Source: Akkermansia sp. (GTDB lineage: Bacteria > Verrucomicrobiota > Verrucomicrobiia > Verrucomicrobiales > Akkermansiaceae). From it: DNA of 64,000 bases. The notes under the pieces were generated by a model. That model was not told where the DNA came from and did no database searches. It saw only the letters and a list, made by a program, of their open reading frames with translations. A program made the translations under genes and the position numbers. Numbering within the stretch: position 1 is the stretch's first letter; every line of letters starts with the position of its first letter. Below are positions 24,624-33,085 of this stretch, piece after piece. The stretch covers positions 124,001 to 188,000 of the forward strand of contig JAUNHW010000003.1 of assembly GCA_030523775.1 (NCBI GenBank), in the 5' to 3' direction.

Positions 24624-27600
24624 ATGAACCGCCTGATTGCCTTTTGCCTGAAGAACCGCCGCCTGGTCTGCGTGGCCACGGCGCTGCTCGCGCTCTGCAG
24701 CCTGTACGCGGTGCTGGAGCTGCCCGTGGATGTATTCCCGGAGCTCAAGGTGCCCCGCGTCACCGTGCAGACGGAAGCCCCCGGCCTGTCCGCGGAGGAG
24801 GTGGAGCAGTATGTCAGCATTCCCATCGAATCCGCCCTCAGCGGCGCCGCGGGGGTCAAGGGCGTGCGCTCGTCCTCCGGAGGCGGCCTCTCCTTCGTGT
24901 GGGTGGACTTCGACTGGGACACCGACATCTACCGCGCCCGCCAGATTGTCTCGGAACGCCTGGCCGCGGTGCGGGATTCCCTGCCGCAAGACGTGGAGAG
25001 CGAGCTCGCACCCATCGTTTCCGTTACGGGCGAAATCATGCTCGTCGCCGTGACGGGCGACGAGGGAACCGACCCGCTGGAGATGCGGCGCGTAGCGGAG
25101 TTCGGACTGCGCAACCGCCTGCTCTCCGTGCCGGGTGTGGGTCAGGTCACCGTGCTGGGCGGCCGCATGCCAGAGTACCAGGTGCTCTACAACCCAGACA
25201 AGATGCTGCGCAGCGGCGTGACGCTGGATGATATCCGCGCTGCCGTGCAGGATGCCCAGAGCACCGCACCCGCAGGCTATCTGGAGGACGTGGCGGGGAT
25301 GGAGCTGCCCGTGCAGCAGGCATCCCGCGCCGCCTCCCCGGAGCATTTGCGCCGCGCGCTCGTCAAGTCGCATCCCGGCGGCGTGCTGCGGCTGGAGGAC
25401 GTGGCGGATGTGCGCATCGACGGCGCGCCGCGCCGCGGCAACGCGGGCTTCAACGGGCAGGAGGCCGTTATCCTCGCCGTGCTGAAGGTTCCCGGCGCCA
25501 ACACGCTGGAGCTCACGGAAAAATTGCAAAGAGAGGTGGATGATTTTGCCAAGAGCGCGCTGCCTTCAGGCATGCACCTGCATGCGGACGCATACCGCCA
25601 GGCGGACTTCATCCAACTCTCGCTGGAGAACGGCCGGCAGACGCTGTTCATTGCCGCCGTTGTGGTGATGCTGGTGATTGTGCTCACGCTGCTCAACCTG
25701 CGCACGGCAATCATCACGCTGGTGAGCATGCCGCTCTCCGTGCTGTTCGGCATGGCGTTCTTCCCCGCCTGCGGGCTGTCGGTGAACATCATGACCCTCG
25801 GAGGCCTGGCCGTGGCGGTGGGTGATGTGGTGGACAACGCCATCATCTTCGTGGAGGTGGCGTGGCGCAACCTCTCCCGCAACGCCGCACTCCCGCCGGA
25901 GCAGCAGAAATCACGCTTCCGGGTGCTCATGGAGGCCAAGGGCGAGATTGTGAGCTCCATCACGTACTCCTCCGTCATCATCCTGCTGGTGTTCGCGCCC
26001 GTGCTGTTCCTGGGCGGGCTGGAGGGCCAGTTCTACCGCCCGCTGGGCGTCTCGTACATGCTGGCGCTGGCGGCATCGCTCCTGGTGGCGCTCACCATCG
26101 TTCCCGTGCTGTGCATGATTGGCTTCAAGCGTTCCAAGAGCGCATCCGACAACGGGGATTCCGCCACCGCGCGCGCCATCCGCGCCGCCTACCGCCCGGT
26201 GCTGGCGTTCTGCATGCGCCGCGCGGGCTGGGTGTTCGCATCGCTTCTGGTGGTGACCGCGGGCTTCATGGCGCTGGCCTCCACCTACGGCACCAGCTTC
26301 CTGCCGCCCTTCAACGAGGATTGCTACACCGTCTTCGTCAACACGGTCCCCGGCACCTCCCTGCAGGAGACTGAGCGCATCTCCAACCAAGTGATGCGCG
26401 AGCTGCAGGAAATCGACGGCGTGAAGACCGTGGCACAGCGCACGGGGCGCGCCGAGAGCGACGAGCATGCCGAGCCCGTCAGCGCCTCCGAGCTCCTGGT
26501 GCGCGTGGATCTCGCCAAGGACCAGAAGAAGATTCGCGAGGCCATCCATGAGGTCATCCACGGCGTGCCCGGCACCAGCGGCATGATCGGCTATCCCATG
26601 GCCCACCGCATCTCCGCCGTGCTTTCCGGCTCCAACTCCGAGATTGCCATCAACATCTACGGCGACGAGCTGCCGCAGCTCCGCAAGGCCGCCAAGAAGG
26701 CCGCGGAAATCCTTTCATCCATGCCCGAGGTGGCAGATGCCCGCGCCAATCGCGAGGTGATGGTGGACACCATCTGCGTGGACTACAACCGCGAGGTCCT
26801 GGCCGCATACGGGCTCACCGTGGCGGAGGCCGCGGAGCAGGTGTCCGCCGCCCTCCACGGCCTGAAGGCGGGCGAGGTCATCCGCAACCTCGACCACTGG
26901 AACATCATGCTGCGCTTGGACCCGCAGCTGCGCATGAGTGTGGACGATGTGCGCCGCCTGCCGCTGCTGGCGGGTGGCGGAAAATCCGTGCCGCTCGGCG
27001 AGGCCGCCCAGGTCTACCGCGCGGAACAGACCAACCTCATCCTGCGCGACAACACTCGCCGCAAGGCCATGATTTCCTGCAACCCCGCGCCCGATTCCAA
27101 CCTCGGCGACCTCGCCCAGGCCTGCCGCGAGAGGCTGGATCCCGCCATGCACGAGCTCGGCTGCACCGTGGACTACGATGGCACCATCAAGAGCCGCGAG
27201 CAGGCGGGCCGCCGCCTGTACCTGCTGGGTGCGGCGGTGTGCGTGCTCATCGTGCTGCTGCTGGCCGCATCGCTCGGCAGCGTGCGCCGCGCCGCCGTCA
27301 CGCTGGTGAACATCCCGCTGTGCCTGGTGGGCGGTATCGCCGCCGTGTTCCTTGCATCGCCCGACACCGTGGCGTCCGTTCTGCACGGTGGGTACGTGCC
27401 GCCCATCCTGTCGGTCAGCTCCATCGTGGGTTTCGTCACGGTCATCGGCTTTGCCATCCGCAGCGGGCTCATCCTGCTCAACCGCTACCGCGCCCTGGAG
27501 CAATCCGGCATGTCCGCCGCGGATGCCATCCGCAACGGCTCAGAGGAACGCCTCATCCCCATCATCATGACCAGCCTCACCACCATCCTCGGTCTGCTCC

Positions 27601-27758
27601 CCCTCGTCTGGGCGCGCAACCAGCCCGGCGGAGAGCTTCTGGCCCCCCTCGCCATCGTCCAATTCGGAGGCCTCCTCTCCGCCACCATCCTCAACCTCCT
27701 ACTCGTCCCCGCAACCTCATCCCTCTTCGCCAAATGGCTTGCCCCGAGATCCCGCTAG
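24624..27758 (+). CDS. Heavy-metal efflux RND transporter (CusA/CzcA family)
   Basis: 1044-residue proton-driven inner-membrane pump. It has the RND architecture: a first helix after a short basic N terminus, a large periplasmic loop, a block of helices at ~335-550, a second loop, and a second helix block at ~870-1030. The helix-4 metal/proton motif region GGLAVAVGDVVDNAIIFVE near 395 matches heavy-metal-type RND proteins. The adaptor with His-rich ends supports metal rather than drug export. The gene ends at the TAG that lies in the left CTAGGCG repeat of the integrase-bearing insertion. Confidence 0.9.
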   Translation: MNRLIAFCLKNRRLVCVATALLALCSLYAVLELPVDVFPELKVPRVTVQTEAPGLSAEEVEQYVSIPIESALSGAAGVKGVRSSSGGGLSFVWVDFDWDTDIYRARQIVSERLAAVRDSLPQDVESELAPIVSVTGEIMLVAVTGDEGTDPLEMRRVAEFGLRNRLLSVPGVGQVTVLGGRMPEYQVLYNPDKMLRSGVTLDDIRAAVQDAQSTAPAGYLEDVAGMELPVQQASRAASPEHLRRALVKSHPGGVLRLEDVADVRIDGAPRRGNAGFNGQEAVILAVLKVPGANTLELTEKLQREVDDFAKSALPSGMHLHADAYRQADFIQLSLENGRQTLFIAAVVVMLVIVLTLLNLRTAIITLVSMPLSVLFGMAFFPACGLSVNIMTLGGLAVAVGDVVDNAIIFVEVAWRNLSRNAALPPEQQKSRFRVLMEAKGEIVSSITYSSVIILLVFAPVLFLGGLEGQFYRPLGVSYMLALAASLLVALTIVPVLCMIGFKRSKSASDNGDSATARAIRAAYRPVLAFCMRRAGWVFASLLVVTAGFMALASTYGTSFLPPFNEDCYTVFVNTVPGTSLQETERISNQVMRELQEIDGVKTVAQRTGRAESDEHAEPVSASELLVRVDLAKDQKKIREAIHEVIHGVPGTSGMIGYPMAHRISAVLSGSNSEIAINIYGDELPQLRKAAKKAAEILSSMPEVADARANREVMVDTICVDYNREVLAAYGLTVAEAAEQVSAALHGLKAGEVIRNLDHWNIMLRLDPQLRMSVDDVRRLPLLAGGGKSVPLGEAAQVYRAEQTNLILRDNTRRKAMISCNPAPDSNLGDLAQACRERLDPAMHELGCTVDYDGTIKSREQAGRRLYLLGAAVCVLIVLLLAASLGSVRRAAVTLVNIPLCLVGGIAAVFLASPDTVASVLHGGYVPPILSVSSIVGFVTVIGFAIRSGLILLNRYRALEQSGMSAADAIRNGSEERLIPIIMTSLTTILGLLPLVWARNQPGGELLAPLAIVQFGGLLSATILNLLLVPATSSLFAKWLAPRSR

Positions 27759-27785
27759 GCGCTTTCAAATGAGAAACAACCAAAG

Positions 27786-27815
27786 CCCGCCCGGCATATA
27801 GTCGGGCAGGGTTTG
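27786..27815. terminator. Weak hairpin between RND and eptA-like genes
   Basis: CCCGCCCG (27786-27793) can pair with CGGGCAGGG (27803-27811), with one bulge. It is followed by TTTGAA on the plus strand and CTTTGG on the minus strand. It lies between two convergent genes and may terminate both. Confidence 0.4.
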
Positions 27816-27818
27816 AAG

Positions 27819-29549
27819 CTATTTCCCGGCCCCGCAATCCTTTGCTGAACCTTGTACGCTTAGGGGAAGATTGTTGGGGTGTTTGCTAATATTATCACTC
27901 CAGATATCTCCTACCTCAAGTGGCACTGTGGATTCTATGTGGCAAAGTTTTAAAATGCTGGCGTACAATTGACCTTGCGCCAATACCTTATCGGCAATCT
28001 CACGTGTTTTCGTTGAAATTTCAGGATTGTTCTTGATGTAGGTGTCAGAATACCATATCCACGAAGCCACGTGGCGCAAATCAAAGTCTTCTGGATTTCC
28101 CCCATGCATAAAGCGCCCGTTTTCTCCAAGTTTTTGCCCGTGGTCGGAGCAATACAGAATCACGGCGTTTTTATCCTTCAATCCATCTATCAAGTGTTTG
28201 GCGAGAGCATCCACGCAAATGATGCAATTGTCGTAATCGTTAATCATTTGCTCAGGTGTGACGCCTGCCCTGGCATCCTGATTTCCCCAATCTATATTAC
28301 CTGGTTGAAACGGTGCGTATTTAGGGTCATGCTTGTACGGGAAATGACCCGTTCCATTTTCAATGACAACGAACTGTTTGGGTGACATCTCCCCTGTGAT
28401 AGCATCCATGATGCCTGATGAAACATCGTCCATTGCCGCATGGAATTCCAAAGTCCTGTTTATTCCCGTTCCGAACAATTGATTGAAATATTGGCTGTGA
28501 ACGATATTGTACGTGTTTTCTGCAATCCACAAATTATGGAAACCATGCTTCTTGAGGATTGAAAGGAAGGAAGAGTAGCCCGGCTTTTCTTTATCAACAG
28601 TCAAAGCCCCCATCATTCCCTCCACGCTCACATATGTAGAGGTCCCATATGAGAACATGTTGCGGAAAAAGGTGATGTTGTCGTTCTTCCCAATCTGCGG
28701 CAGAGTATTCCTCTCATACCCTCCGGCCGGAATATGGTCAGCCCTCACACTTTCCCCGATTATCAACACGAAAACAATTGGCTCGTCCTTGGTCATCGTG
28801 GATTCAACGCTTGCAGAATCCTGTATGTTAATCTTTTTGAATTTTTCATTGAGGGCTCCCCACAATATGTTTATGTTGTTGTATTGCCACAACCAGTGCT
28901 GTACGAACACCTCGTGATGACCGGCCACGTACATTTCCGTATCCTCTTTCAGTGTATTGTCTGCCATGGTGAAATGGAGAGACGGCCTCAGCTTCAACGC
29001 TATTCCTGGCAATTGGAAGCATGCATACCACAGCCCCGCTGCACATATGCATACAAGCGCTGTACTCTTCCACCCGTATTTCCGGATTGTTTCCCTGTGA
29101 TAGTACAGAAAAAATACAAACAGCCAGTAAATCAGAAGACCAATTAATATTAAACCGACTATGGAAATGATGCTGCTAAAATTGACAAAAGCGCCAGCCT
29201 CGTCCTGATTTGTTTCAAATGCCGCGTTTATCAAATCAAACCCCATGCTATACTTGAAGACACGATACACATATGCACATATTGCGAAATAGGTGATGCA
29301 TATTGAATAAATCGCAATGCCCGCGTATGGTATGATAGCACAGAAATACAGGAACAGGAATGAAAGCACTGTGGAGTACAACTGCCGGGCAACTAATGGA
29401 AATCCGTTATAATCAAAAAAGAAAGGGTCATACGTTGCACAAAATGCATACGACAGCATTGCCAACAACACAAACTGGACTGGATTCAAATTTCCAAGAG
29501 AGTATCGGGATTGTTCGGTTCCCAATATTTGACGCGTTAAGGATTTCAT
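27819..29549 (-). CDS. EptA/MCR-like phosphoethanolamine transferase
   Basis: 576-residue inner-membrane enzyme of the alkaline-phosphatase superfamily, which transfers phosphoethanolamine to lipid A or another glycan. Five helices occupy ~30-170. The periplasmic domain has GESVRAD (metal-binding Glu, ~265), the nucleophile region YGTSTYVSVEGMM (~303-315) and CSDHGQKLGENG (~466). The paired cysteines flanking the nucleophile in EptA/MCR proteins are replaced (Y and G). Base composition is visibly AT-richer than in neighbours, a sign of transfer. The ATG at 29549 is chosen because TATCAT ends 7 nt before it; an in-frame ATG at 29567 also exists. Lipid A modification could give cationic-peptide resistance. 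Confidence 0.8.
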   Translation of the reverse strand: MKSLTRQILGTEQSRYSLGNLNPVQFVLLAMLSYAFCATYDPFFFDYNGFPLVARQLYSTVLSFLFLYFCAIIPYAGIAIYSICITYFAICAYVYRVFKYSMGFDLINAAFETNQDEAGAFVNFSSIISIVGLILIGLLIYWLFVFFLYYHRETIRKYGWKSTALVCICAAGLWYACFQLPGIALKLRPSLHFTMADNTLKEDTEMYVAGHHEVFVQHWLWQYNNINILWGALNEKFKKINIQDSASVESTMTKDEPIVFVLIIGESVRADHIPAGGYERNTLPQIGKNDNITFFRNMFSYGTSTYVSVEGMMGALTVDKEKPGYSSFLSILKKHGFHNLWIAENTYNIVHSQYFNQLFGTGINRTLEFHAAMDDVSSGIMDAITGEMSPKQFVVIENGTGHFPYKHDPKYAPFQPGNIDWGNQDARAGVTPEQMINDYDNCIICVDALAKHLIDGLKDKNAVILYCSDHGQKLGENGRFMHGGNPEDFDLRHVASWIWYSDTYIKNNPEISTKTREIADKVLAQGQLYASILKLCHIESTVPLEVGDIWSDNISKHPNNLPLSVQGSAKDCGAGK

Positions 29550-29561
29550 CGGAGAAATGAT

Positions 29562-29578
29562 ACCCATTGCTAATGGGT
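29562..29578. promoter_or_regulatory. Inverted repeat at the eptA-like start, candidate operator
   Basis: ACCCATT-GCT-AATGGGT is a perfect 7-bp inverted repeat with a 3-bp spacer. It overlaps the first base of the putative eptA -10 box TATCAT (29557-29562). A 12-bp part (29567-29578) recurs as its reverse complement at 29718-29729, just upstream of the recombinase gene. Confidence 0.45.
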
Positions 29579-29717
29579 GTTTGATGGTCTATTGTTCCAG
29601 TAAATTCAAATGTTACCAAGTCATGAAGCAATCTCACTTCCGCTGCATCGTTCTGCTGGAGGGCTGGTGAAACCCTTGTGCCAGCAAGCTCGATTTTTTT
29701 TGGAAAAAGACTTGACT

Positions 29718-29729
29718 ACCCATTAGCAA
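29718..29729. promoter_or_regulatory. Second copy of the 12-bp motif, upstream of the recombinase
   Basis: ACCCATTAGCAA is the exact reverse complement of 29567-29578. It lies 12 bp before the recombinase ATG. It could be a shared operator of the two divergent genes or a recombinase-binding site. A TTGACT at 29712-29717 lies immediately before it, but no good -10 box follows. Confidence 0.4.
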
Positions 29730-29741
29730 AGCGAGAACACA

Positions 29742-30773
29742 ATGGACACAGAAATCACAGACAGGGAACAGGCGGCATTTGAAGTGCTGAAATCAACAGG
29801 AGTGGATGTGCTGGAGGCTGCGTTGGTGGCCAGGGAGGCACTAGAATGCGGACGCGGGCGGGTTAGGCGGGCGCGGGAGTGCGTGCGGCTGGGCGCGGAG
29901 GAAATGCGGAAACGGGAGAGGACCGTGACGTTCCGCAAGGCGGTGGAAGCCGCATTGGAGGAGCGGGAGAAGAAGAACAGGCGGGCGCGGACGGTGACGG
30001 ATTTCCGTTACTATTGCAAGCGGCTGATGGTGCGGAATCCCGGGCTGGCGGAACGGCGGATGCGGAGTGTTACGTCGGATGATTGCCGGGCGTACCTGCA
30101 GGCGGCGTACGGGGAGAGTCCATCCCAATACCGCAAGGCGCGGGCGATATTGAGCGGGGTGTTTTCCACGGCTATCAAGCACGATTGGTGCGATGTCAAT
30201 CCGGTGTCACGCGTGGAGGTGCCGGAGGTGGTGGAGAAGCCGATAGAACCGCTGACGATTGAGGAAGTGGAGCGTCTGGAGGCGGCGGCGCAGTTGCCGG
30301 AGCATCAGGAGATGCAGCTGTCGCTGCACCTGATGCTGTACTGCGGCATCCGTCCCACGGAAGTGAGCAGGATTGATCCCGAACGCGACATCGACTGGCA
30401 GAACCAGCGCGTGGTGGTGCGTCCCACCACGAGCAAGACGGGTGGAGGGCGCGTGGTTCCGCTGCGCAAGGCGGAAGGCATCACCGTGCGCACCATTCCG
30501 CACCGCTGGAAGGAGCGCTGGCATGCCCTGCGGCGCAAGGCGGGTTGGAACCAAAGTCATCCCTGGCAGCCAGATGTTTGCCGGCACACTTTTGCCACCT
30601 ACCACGCTGCGCATTTCCGCAACTTCCCCGCTCTCCAGCTGGAAATGGGGCACCGGGATGTCACCCTTTTGAGAACGCGCTATGTGTACGCGAGAATGGA
30701 GTCATGCAATGCCGCGCAGCAATTTTTTGCGAGAGACAATAGGCCGAAATCCCTTCTAGGCGTCAGCGGGTGA
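29742..30773 (+). CDS. Site-specific tyrosine recombinase/integrase
   Basis: 343 residues with an N-terminal SAM-like core-binding domain (~70-170) and a C-terminal catalytic domain. The catalytic Arg I is in YCGIRPTEV near 203, Lys in TSKTGGGR near 232, Arg II in PDVCRHTFATY, the second His in MGHRDVTLL, and the Tyr nucleophile in RTRYVYARM near 313. In the usual HxxR box the His is Asp (DVCR), an atypical substitution. Composition is like the host, unlike its AT-rich neighbour. The last four codons and stop lie beyond the right CTAGGCG repeat, and the stop overlaps the aroA 3' end by 11 bp. Confidence 0.88.
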   Translation: MDTEITDREQAAFEVLKSTGVDVLEAALVAREALECGRGRVRRARECVRLGAEEMRKRERTVTFRKAVEAALEEREKKNRRARTVTDFRYYCKRLMVRNPGLAERRMRSVTSDDCRAYLQAAYGESPSQYRKARAILSGVFSTAIKHDWCDVNPVSRVEVPEVVEKPIEPLTIEEVERLEAAAQLPEHQEMQLSLHLMLYCGIRPTEVSRIDPERDIDWQNQRVVVRPTTSKTGGGRVVPLRKAEGITVRTIPHRWKERWHALRRKAGWNQSHPWQPDVCRHTFATYHAAHFRNFPALQLEMGHRDVTLLRTRYVYARMESCNAAQQFFARDNRPKSLLGVSG

Positions 30774-32073
30774 GTTCCCGCAGCGTTTGCTCGAAGGAGG
30801 GGTAGGAGGTGGCGATGTTTCGGCAGCCCTGCAGGGTGGTGGTGCCGGCGGCGTTCAGGCCGGCCATGAGGAAGGACATGGCGATGCGGTGGTCATCGAA
30901 GCTCTGCAGGGTGGCACCGTGCAGCGGGGTGCCGCCGGTGATGCACATGCCGTCCTCACGCTCCTCTGCGGCCGCTCCCATGGCGCGGAGGTTGCCGACG
31001 GTGGTGGTGATGCGGTCGCTCTCTTTGACGCGCAGTTCCGCGGCATCGCGGATGTTGGTGGTGCCGTGCGCGAAGGCGGCGGCCACGGCGAGCACGGGGA
31101 TTTCATCGATGATGTTCGGTATTTCCGCGCCGCCGATTTCCGTGCCGTGCAGGTTGGGGGCGTGGCGCACGGTGATGTCGCCGTAGGGCTCTCCCTCCCC
31201 GTGGATGCTGCGGATGGTGATGTCTGCCCCCATGCGCTGCAGCACGGGGATGATGCCGCAGCGGGTGGGGTTGAGCCCCACGTTGCGCAGGGTGAGCTCG
31301 CTGCCGGGCACAATGCTGGCGGCCACCATCCAGAATGCCGCGCTGGAGATGTCGCCGGGGATGGTGATGTCCCTTGCCGTGATGTCCACCGGGCCGGTGA
31401 CCGCAATGTCCAATCCGTCCGCAGAAACGGAGCAGGGGATGCCGAAGTGCGCGAACAGGCGCTCCGTGTGGTCGCGGGTAATGGCGGGCTGGTGCACGCT
31501 TGTGGTGCCGCGGGTGAGCATGCCGGCCAGCAGCACGGCGCTCTTCACCTGGGCGCTGGCCATGGGCAGGGTGTAGCGGATGGGTTGCAGCGTGCCGCCG
31601 CAGATGTGCAGCGGGGCGCAGCCGGGTTTCTCTCCGCACGCCTCCACGTGCGCGCCCATCATGGTGAGCGGGTCCAATATGCGCTTCATGGGGCGGCTGC
31701 TCAGCGAGCGGTCGCCGAACAGGCGGCTCTCGAAGGGCAGGGCGGCCAGCACCCCGGCCATGAGCCGCATGCCGGTGCCGGAGTTCCCGCAGTCGATATC
31801 CCGCTGCGGGGCGGCCGGTTGCATGCCGCAGCCGGTGAGCGTGAAGTTCTGCGGCGCGTCACCGGGCTCCACGCGCGCGCCTATCTGCTGCATGGCGCGC
31901 AGAGTATTCAGGCAGTCCTCGCTGCACAGGAAGTTGCGCACCTGCATGCTGCCGTGCGCCAGCGCACCCAAGATGGCCACGCGGTGGGAGATGCTCTTGT
32001 CGCCGGGGATGGCAACCGTGCCGCGCAGGCCGTGCGCTGCGCGGCTCACGGAGATGGTGTCACTTGCCGCCAT
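30763..32073 (-). CDS. aroA: 3-phosphoshikimate 1-carboxyvinyltransferase (EPSP synthase)
   Basis: 436-residue enzyme joining shikimate-3-phosphate and phosphoenolpyruvate in the chorismate pathway. Motifs seen are GDKSISHR near residue 22, NSGTGMRLMAG near 95, GDRSLSSRPM near 118, KESDRI near 343 and DDHRIAMSF near 383. The length is standard. The ATG at 32073 is the first plausible start; longer in-frame extensions are antisense-like. It overlaps the upstream parvulin gene by 14 bp, which suggests coupling. Its 3' end marks the right junction of the integrase insertion. Confidence 0.95.
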   Translation of the reverse strand: MAASDTISVSRAAHGLRGTVAIPGDKSISHRVAILGALAHGSMQVRNFLCSEDCLNTLRAMQQIGARVEPGDAPQNFTLTGCGMQPAAPQRDIDCGNSGTGMRLMAGVLAALPFESRLFGDRSLSSRPMKRILDPLTMMGAHVEACGEKPGCAPLHICGGTLQPIRYTLPMASAQVKSAVLLAGMLTRGTTSVHQPAITRDHTERLFAHFGIPCSVSADGLDIAVTGPVDITARDITIPGDISSAAFWMVAASIVPGSELTLRNVGLNPTRCGIIPVLQRMGADITIRSIHGEGEPYGDITVRHAPNLHGTEIGGAEIPNIIDEIPVLAVAAAFAHGTTNIRDAAELRVKESDRITTTVGNLRAMGAAAEEREDGMCITGGTPLHGATLQSFDDHRIAMSFLMAGLNAAGTTTLQGCRNIATSYPSFEQTLRELTR

Positions 32074-33085
32074 AGATGATGATGTGCTTTTTGGCGCGTC
32101 CCTCCTTGAGCGCGGTGTCGAAATAGGCGTCCGTGGCGAGCTCCCTCTGCGCGCTCTCAATGGCGCTGCGCAGGGATTCGCGGCACTCGTCCAGTGATGG
32201 CGTGTAGGCGGGGGTGACGGGCCCTGCCAGCACAATGTGCCAGCCCCAGCGGCTCTGCACCAGCGCGGGCGTGCCAGCCGCCAGCGGTGACTCCCCGAAA
32301 AGGTTCAGCTCCTCCAGCGGCAGCGTGCCGTCGTCGTACAGCGTTCCCAGGTCGCCGCCCTTGGGCGCGCTGCGCTCGTCCTCGCTGCACTCGCGCGCCA
32401 CATCCGCAAAGGATTCACCCGCCTGAATGCGCGCCAGCAGGGCCTCCGCGGTGGCCTTCACGGTCTCCGGGTCCTTTTCCAGCGTGGCCAGGAAGATGTG
32501 CTTCACCGTGCGGGATGCGGGGATTTCCAGCTCGTCCTTCAACTGGTCGTAGTGGAGTTTCAGGGCCTCGTTTCCCACGGCGGTGTGCTTGTCTGCCGCG
32601 CGTTCCAGGACGGCGAGCTCCAGCAGGCGGGCCTCCAGCTTGGCGGCAAAGTTTTCGCGCGTGTAGCCCTGGGAAAGCAGGGCTGCGTTGAAGGCGTGTT
32701 CATCCGCCGCGCGGGATTGCAGGCGCGCCATCTCTTCCTGCGCCTCCTGCTTTTGGGGCGGCAGGTTACGGTCGTTGTAGCGGGCCTGGATGCGCACCAT
32801 GCTGTTGTTCACCAGCCCCAGCACCATGGTGGCGGGGCGGGAGTTGTCCGTGCTCTCGCGGCCGGCCAGCAGGTTCTGCTCCGCCGTGTGGCGCGCCAGC
32901 TGCGCGCGCGTGATGCGCTCTCCGTTCACGGAGGCCACGGGCTCCTCTGCCGCGGCGGTCTGCAGCGGGTGCAGGATGCGGTACACCGGGCCCTCCACCA
33001 CCCACAGGTCTATCGCCAAATAGCCCAGCACCGTGGTGAACAGCGCAAGCTTGATGGCCGTTAGCTTCAGGGAACTGATTCTCAC
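32060..33085 (-). CDS. SurA/PpiC-type parvulin peptidyl-prolyl isomerase
   Basis: 341-residue envelope foldase. An N-terminal membrane anchor (about residues 8-28) is followed by a SurA-like chaperone region beginning with SVNGERITRAQLA near 52. The PpiC parvulin domain is at ~185-285 (SRTVKHIFLATLE, GGDLGTLYDDGTLP, SRWGWHIVLAG). It probably helps outer-membrane or secreted proteins fold. The start is a GTG at 33085, which lies 6 nt after a TAAAAT -10 box. The gene overlaps aroA. Confidence 0.88.
   Translation of the reverse strand: MRISSLKLTAIKLALFTTVLGYLAIDLWVVEGPVYRILHPLQTAAAEEPVASVNGERITRAQLARHTAEQNLLAGRESTDNSRPATMVLGLVNNSMVRIQARYNDRNLPPQKQEAQEEMARLQSRAADEHAFNAALLSQGYTRENFAAKLEARLLELAVLERAADKHTAVGNEALKLHYDQLKDELEIPASRTVKHIFLATLEKDPETVKATAEALLARIQAGESFADVARECSEDERSAPKGGDLGTLYDDGTLPLEELNLFGESPLAAGTPALVQSRWGWHIVLAGPVTPAYTPSLDECRESLRSAIESAQRELATDAYFDTALKEGRAKKHIIIYGGK

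Follow-up and report, generated by a model that had tools for sequence, protein, structure and literature searches.

The block lying between an RND permease gene and aroA in an animal-gut Akkermansia spanned 3,001 bp (27762-30762, or any register of the repeat), was flanked by the heptamer CTAGGCG, and carried an EptA-like gene and a divergent tyrosine recombinase gene on either side of a short segment bounded by inverted repeats. Positions refer to the window, i.e., the whole 64,000-nt stretch of DNA that was analysed; G000 denotes the genome of the window, other G numbers the compared genomes, and L numbers loci. The features of the locus were as follows.

24624-27758, + strand: RND permease, host flank (profile match, nearest model CusA/CzcA type)
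27755-27761, no strand: left CTAGGCG, containing the RND stop codon (27756-27758)
27819-29567, - strand: EptA-like gene, phosphoethanolamine-transferase-like, predicted switch target (Pfam Sulfatase PF00884, 8.3e-25; EptA_B_N PF08019, 7e-06)
29557-29562, - strand: predicted -10 hexamer TATCAT, fixed outside the left arm on the EptA side (sequence, promoter score)
29567-29578, no strand: left inverted-repeat arm TTGCTAATGGGT, perfect, 12 nt
29579-29717, no strand: 139-bp segment, likely invertible (perfect arms; distant family homologues in both orientations)
29712-29717, + strand: -35 hexamer TTGACT at the recombinase end of the segment, predicted OFF (sequence)
29718-29729, no strand: right inverted-repeat arm ACCCATTAGCAA, perfect, 12 nt
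29742-30773, + strand: tyrosine recombinase, likely an invertase (PF00589, 1.3e-13)
30756-30762, no strand: right CTAGGCG, abutting the aroA stop codon (30763-30765)
30763-32076, - strand: aroA, host flank (profile match)

This layout bore out the original prediction, which had described a CTAGGCG-flanked block of ~3.0 kb with an AT-rich EptA/MCR-like gene and a tyrosine recombinase, the RND stop codon lying within the left repeat copy and the aroA stop codon next to the right one. GC content was 44% in the EptA-like gene, 62% in the recombinase gene and 64% in the window. The 7-bp repeat alone was weak and within chance (6.7 occurrences of CTAGGCG expected in the window, 2 observed). The block stood above chance because G052:C124 holds a gap-free empty counterpart, with the 3'-terminal 44 codons of an aroA copy directly adjoining the end of RND. 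Aligned to the window joined at CTAGGCG, this junction gave ~200 columns with zero gaps across it, and the empty site anticipated in relatives (RND and aroA joined) was thus found in one of them. The aroA sequence beside RND in G052 (L206) was only this 3' remnant, full-length aroA being located on another G052 contig.

The empty counterpart implies that, at a CTAGGCG junction, the block was either inserted in G000 or precisely lost in G052. Relatives of the RND permease with 98% protein identity were found in G051, G052 and G053. In the five relatives read besides G052 (G051, G053, G056, G039 and G014) the sequence after RND differed from that of the window, which marks this position as a place of frequent change, and RND was beside aroA at none of 29 aroA loci of other genomes (flanks of up to 1.5 kb). 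Counting L206, the sequence 3' of RND was different in all six relatives read.

The EptA-like protein scored above the gathering thresholds of both PF08019 and PF00884. It aligned with MCR-1 over residues 261-505, where the GES, GTST, SDHG and HGG motifs, the catalytic motifs of MCR-1, lined up. It therefore had the Sulfatase-fold catalytic domain and motifs in common with the MCR-1 and EptA phosphoethanolamine transferases, but differed from them in its scores, which fell under the curated cut-off in all 19 NCBIfam models matched (e.g., NF028537, 155.7 of 500 bits), hence the name EptA-like. Its 40 database relatives included one Akkermansia sp., and the weakest came from an uncultured Polaribacter. 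Strong repeats within 600 bp upstream were found for one of 13 EptA-like relatives checked (L038), with only 117 bp checkable at L035 and a repeat pair further upstream at L195; a switch of this kind does not precede most of the EptA-like relatives. A second EptA-like gene of G000, at L195 (G000:C4:98000-110000), follows an ORF resembling an acyltransferase (by eye). The gene lies downstream of an inverted-repeat pair whose TTGACT is directed towards it (predicted ON), and no recombinase is nearby.

The recombinase displayed the tyrosine recombinase catalytic set (R, K, HxxR, H/W, Y), save for an Asp in place of the first His of the HxxR box, a replacement found in 10 of 10 aligned family members. 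The catalytic residues R204, K232, R281, H304 and Y314 were invariant in the same alignment. The reading frame had no stop of its own before the right repeat and ran 11 nt beyond it, ending inside the convergent aroA sequence (30763-30773); C-terminal length also varied among other copies of the recombinase. Matches were present in 75 of 76 genomes of the genus, with up to 20 per genome, while outside the genus (189 genomes of the order) they were weak among the matches listed (at most 33% identity, best E 3e-19). Metagenome-assembled genomes from horse faeces were among the nearest relatives. Two contigs filed under 'Candidatus Colimorpha merdihippi' (L109, L113) also carried this recombinase and switch and are probably mis-binned Akkermansia DNA.

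Between the two divergent genes, the perfect 12-nt arms enclosed a short intergenic segment of 139 bp, an arrangement that fits a promoter inverton. As assembled, the -35 hexamer TTGACT points at the recombinase, and the EptA-like gene is predicted to be OFF. Inversion would bring about TTGACT-16-TATCAT facing the EptA-like gene, the 16-nt spacer consisting of the repeat arm and four outer bases, and the gene would then be predicted ON. The promoter match toward the EptA-like gene was 8/12 as assembled and 10/12 if flipped, a modest difference. A general promoter scan returned no match of at least 9/12 at the switch as assembled, and 4 in the block stretch, with 3.0 expected. The first ATG of the EptA-like frame is at 29567, and another is at 29549. 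The former lies upstream of the predicted transcription start and the latter begins 7 nt past the predicted -10, making ATG 29549 the likelier start in the ON transcript, as inferred from sequence; with so short a distance from the -10, that transcript may be leaderless.

The genes and repeats of 27762-30762 are best described as an EptA-like gene and a divergent recombinase gene around a segment which this recombinase probably inverts, switching the EptA-like gene on or off; this reading is held with good, though not full, confidence. That the recombinase likely flips the segment follows from related copies elsewhere in the genus, which occur in both orientations. A single population may in this way come to contain cells differing in phosphoethanolamine decoration of lipid A or, depending on the substrate of the enzyme, of another surface lipid.

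The pairing of recombinase and inverted repeat was found across the genus. The survey comprised 132 recombinase loci, which were the best-scoring or fetched matches in the genus; 7 were too short upstream, leaving 125 scorable loci. At 106 of these, arms no shorter than 11 nt enclosed a loop of 100-200 bp; the other 19 had no such repeat. In a control on 57 loci (loop of 80-320), repeats were obtained at 46 loci upstream of the recombinase and at 4 downstream, while 20 mononucleotide shuffles gave a mean of 1.05 and a maximum of 4. Arms had a median length of 14 nt and loops of 137 bp. Counts given below for 105 loci leave out L018 (G020:C69), whose 81-nt inverted repeat reaches the contig end and is probably an assembly artefact.

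Arm sequence followed recombinase type. The arm class was the same as that of the nearest recombinase (below 90% identity) at 80 of 105 loci, compared with a mean of 18.5 and a maximum of 32 in 500 shuffles, the classes having been set after the arms were seen and common descent of the module being another possible source of this agreement. CGGATT, the published inverton motif of A. muciniphila, was found in the arms of 34 of 105 family members. In five near genomes, the arm pattern of the window was matched at 28 sites (9 in G000, 6 in G051, 8 in G052, 5 in G053 and none in G056), and 24 of them had a perfect inverted partner at 119-151 bp, with variable inner bases. A recombinase was located on the right of 18 of the 28 sites, one site was cut by a contig end, and at the remaining 9 no recombinase was found within roughly 1.5 kb. 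Together with the 19 scorable loci without a repeat, these 9 sites make it possible that the recombinase acts at a distance.

The promoter signals of the surveyed loci were split in the manner predicted for the window. In the best cargo-facing promoter, the -35 belonged to the segment and the -10 lay outside it; between them, the arm together with a few outer bases provided a spacer of 16-18 nt. TTGACT served as the -35 at 60 of 105 loci, and the commonest -10 hexamers were TATACT (11), TATAAT (11) and TAGAAT (8). A promoter match of at least 9/12 was obtained at 74 of 105 loci facing the cargo and at 11 of 105 facing the recombinase. Mean scores were 9.10 for the cargo-facing promoter, 7.62 when the outside bases were shuffled and 7.45 for the recombinase-facing one. 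Self-feedback, with a promoter directed at the recombinase while the switch is OFF, was also considered but is not claimed, since the recombinase-facing score was no better than that of shuffled outside bases.

Orientation was assessed by motif position, by promoter score and by alignment of the segments, the last being a stronger test than the score. The -35-like motif was at the recombinase end of the segment at 80 of 105 loci, at the cargo end at 14 and at neither at 11. Promoter score with a margin above 1 called 66 of 106 loci OFF and 8 ON, with 32 undecided; without the margin, 89 of 105 were OFF, 11 ON and 5 undecided. The calls clashed at places (e.g., L160, cargo-side by motif and OFF by score). 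A repeat could be scored in 14 near copies of the window, of which 13 were called OFF and one was undecided. Both orientations are known from homologous loci elsewhere; no genome showed the window locus flipped.

Segments of L026 and L029 aligned with those of L254, L263 and L267 only as reverse complements (scores of 93-108, against 14-20 in direct orientation). The same held for L230 and L219 (106 reversed, 16 direct). Over the whole comparison, reversed segment scores had their 99% point at 29. When the arms were included with the segment, identical columns were 125/163 reversed versus 96/171 direct for L029/L254, 141/187 versus 106/196 for L230/L219, and 119/152 versus 94/163 for L026/L267. 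These pairs are related copies at different places, partly within one genome (L219 and L230 are both from G014), and not one locus seen twice. A clear reversed partner was thus obtained for 3 of the 8 ON-called loci (L026, L029 and L230) and for none of the other five.

Genes adjacent to the switches were often surface genes. Cargo, defined as the first ORF past the arm with at least 90 codons, was present at 102 of 106 loci. Its families among these 102 loci included Chlam_PMP (14), PEP-CTERM (6), Acyl_transf_3 (5), OMP_b-brl (5), Hexapep (3), PATR (3), Sulfatase (2), GtrA (2) and Glycos_transf_2 (2), taken from the best 25 of 72 families overall; one protein may count in several families, and totals are not additive. 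An all-against-all comparison revealed that close copies have the repeat-bounded segment and the recombinase in common (about 29556-30692 in the window). Cargo was also common in a few pairs (e.g., L087/L093, L089/L090 and L083/L094), not in most, and the downstream ends of near copies were all different.

Several natural variants of the arrangement were encountered. Similar glycosyltransferase-like cargo, with switch and recombinase, was found at different places in G052:C124 and G053:C91. A relative of that cargo (83% at the DNA level) in G051:C67 (L204) was located behind TTGACT-16-TATACT, without a good partner repeat and with no recombinase within the stretch examined. A promoter of the same design (TTGACT-16-TAGAAT), also without a good partner repeat, was seen in G051:C81 (L205), and L204 and L205 look as if they were switches locked ON. 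Different cargo was found beside the same left flank in G052:C92 and G051:C81. Two divergent, similar ORFs at L196 (G000:C5:51000-64000) were separated by a repeat pair that had -10-like motifs on either side and no recombinase, possibly an either/or switch between the two.

The original prediction had suggested that the block could be a minimal mobile unit which spreads lipid A modification; on this reading, its own integrase would move it as an integrative element between the CTAGGCG sites. The empty site in G052, without a gap at the junction, and the 7-bp direct repeat stood in its favour, as did the low GC of the EptA-like gene in a window of 64% GC and the glycosyltransferase-like cargo that accompanied switch and recombinase at different places in G052:C124 and G053:C91. 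The part of the claim that made the integrase the mover of the block was not supported. Shared attachment sites of the kind used by the recombinase were absent from the borders, which matched its arm at 6-8 of 12 positions, mostly as random 70-mers do; the right ends of near copies all differed, most near copies had no cargo in common, and the recombinase was paired with inverted (106 of 125 loci), not direct, sites. Close copies shared the segment and recombinase, and only few of them the cargo. The block had no match in 72,556 plasmid records or in 50,697 phage records, and viral contigs searched with the EptA-like protein yielded no relative. An element moved by this integrase is thus considered unlikely, and the recombinase more probably serves as a DNA invertase than as the mover of the block.

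Capture of genes in the manner of an integron, with the palindromic left arm as the insertion site for new surface genes and the change of orientation as a by-product, would account for the sequence left of the arm varying between most copies while segment and recombinase are common, and for the different cargo beside the same left flank in G052:C92 and G051:C81. This was judged quite improbable, and less likely than inversion because the sites are inverted pairs, two instead of one, and because segments occur reversed; promoter signals at the cargo-side arm and the weak match of the recombinase to the integron-integrase model (26.6 bits, with a cut-off of 265) also speak against it. No greater credence was given to a switch that is defunct at this locus, with the segment frozen OFF and the EptA-like gene silent or read from another promoter. 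The recombinase stop within flanking aroA sequence, the OFF calls in 13 of 14 near copies and the chance-level promoter scan of the block would be in keeping with such a state, but the catalytic residues are present, the arms are perfect and the frames open, and the C-terminal length varies in other copies too. Promoter inversion by the adjacent recombinase remains the preferred reading of the locus.

Tyrosine invertases with invertible promoters at surface genes occur in Bacteroides. The system of the window resembles these in its tyrosine recombinase, proposed promoter inversion and surface genes, but its -10 seems not to move with the flipped segment, and, among the matches listed from 189 genomes of the order, strong matches to its recombinase family are confined to Akkermansia. 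Within the genus, the accessible text on the cps1 inverton of A. muciniphila describes both orientations, capsule ON/OFF states and the repeat motif CGGATT..AATCCG (PMC13343947). Its invertible segment lies between inverted repeats beside a surface gene locus, as does the probably invertible one of the window, yet its motif is absent from the window arms, which are of the ACCCATTAGCAA type, and its target is a capsule instead of an EptA-like gene. The words 'recombinase' and 'integrase' are absent from the main text of that article. Inverton group 138 of A. muciniphila, as far as the accessible text goes, is exemplified by 17-nt repeats separated by ~157 bp, with autotransporter genes and PEP-CTERM proteins nearby (PMC11892184); the present survey gave a comparable loop (median 137 bp) and neighbours of the same kinds. 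In the same portion of that article, links to invertases are given for groups other than 138, and the coordinates printed there for group 138 showed no inverted repeat on G005.

Multi-copy XerD-like genes in A. muciniphila have been taken, in the accessible text of PMC9241678, as a sign of phage or genomic-island integration and gene transfer; if these are the same genes, an alternative reading as invertases can be offered. In the literature searched, with most subscription papers outside it, no report tied invertible DNA of Akkermansia to a tyrosine recombinase (a weak absence), nothing was found on phase-variable autotransporters of Akkermansia with an integrase, and no relevant title came up on invertons and polymyxin or on phase variation of phosphoethanolamine transferases by inversion. 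Akkermansia invertons have already been published, and the recombinase family, the split promoter and the EptA-like target look like additions.

A wider reading is put forward tentatively, as a possibility that does not reach an even chance. It holds that Akkermansia carries genus-wide, portable phase switches, each made of a tyrosine invertase and a split promoter of which the -35 flips and the -10 stays with the cargo, with an arm sequence of its own for each invertase lineage and many surface genes per genome (one genome has up to 20 recombinase matches) flipping independently, EptA-like lipid decoration being one output among them. For the invertons of this genus, the analysis proposes a candidate family of recombinases, whose type corresponds to that of the repeat, together with a precise model of the promoter. 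If the reading is true, populations would contain reversible subpopulations differing in their response to cationic host peptides, and with an EptA-like target, lipid decoration, perhaps together with antimicrobial-peptide sensitivity, would become a reversible single-cell trait of a major mucus bacterium.
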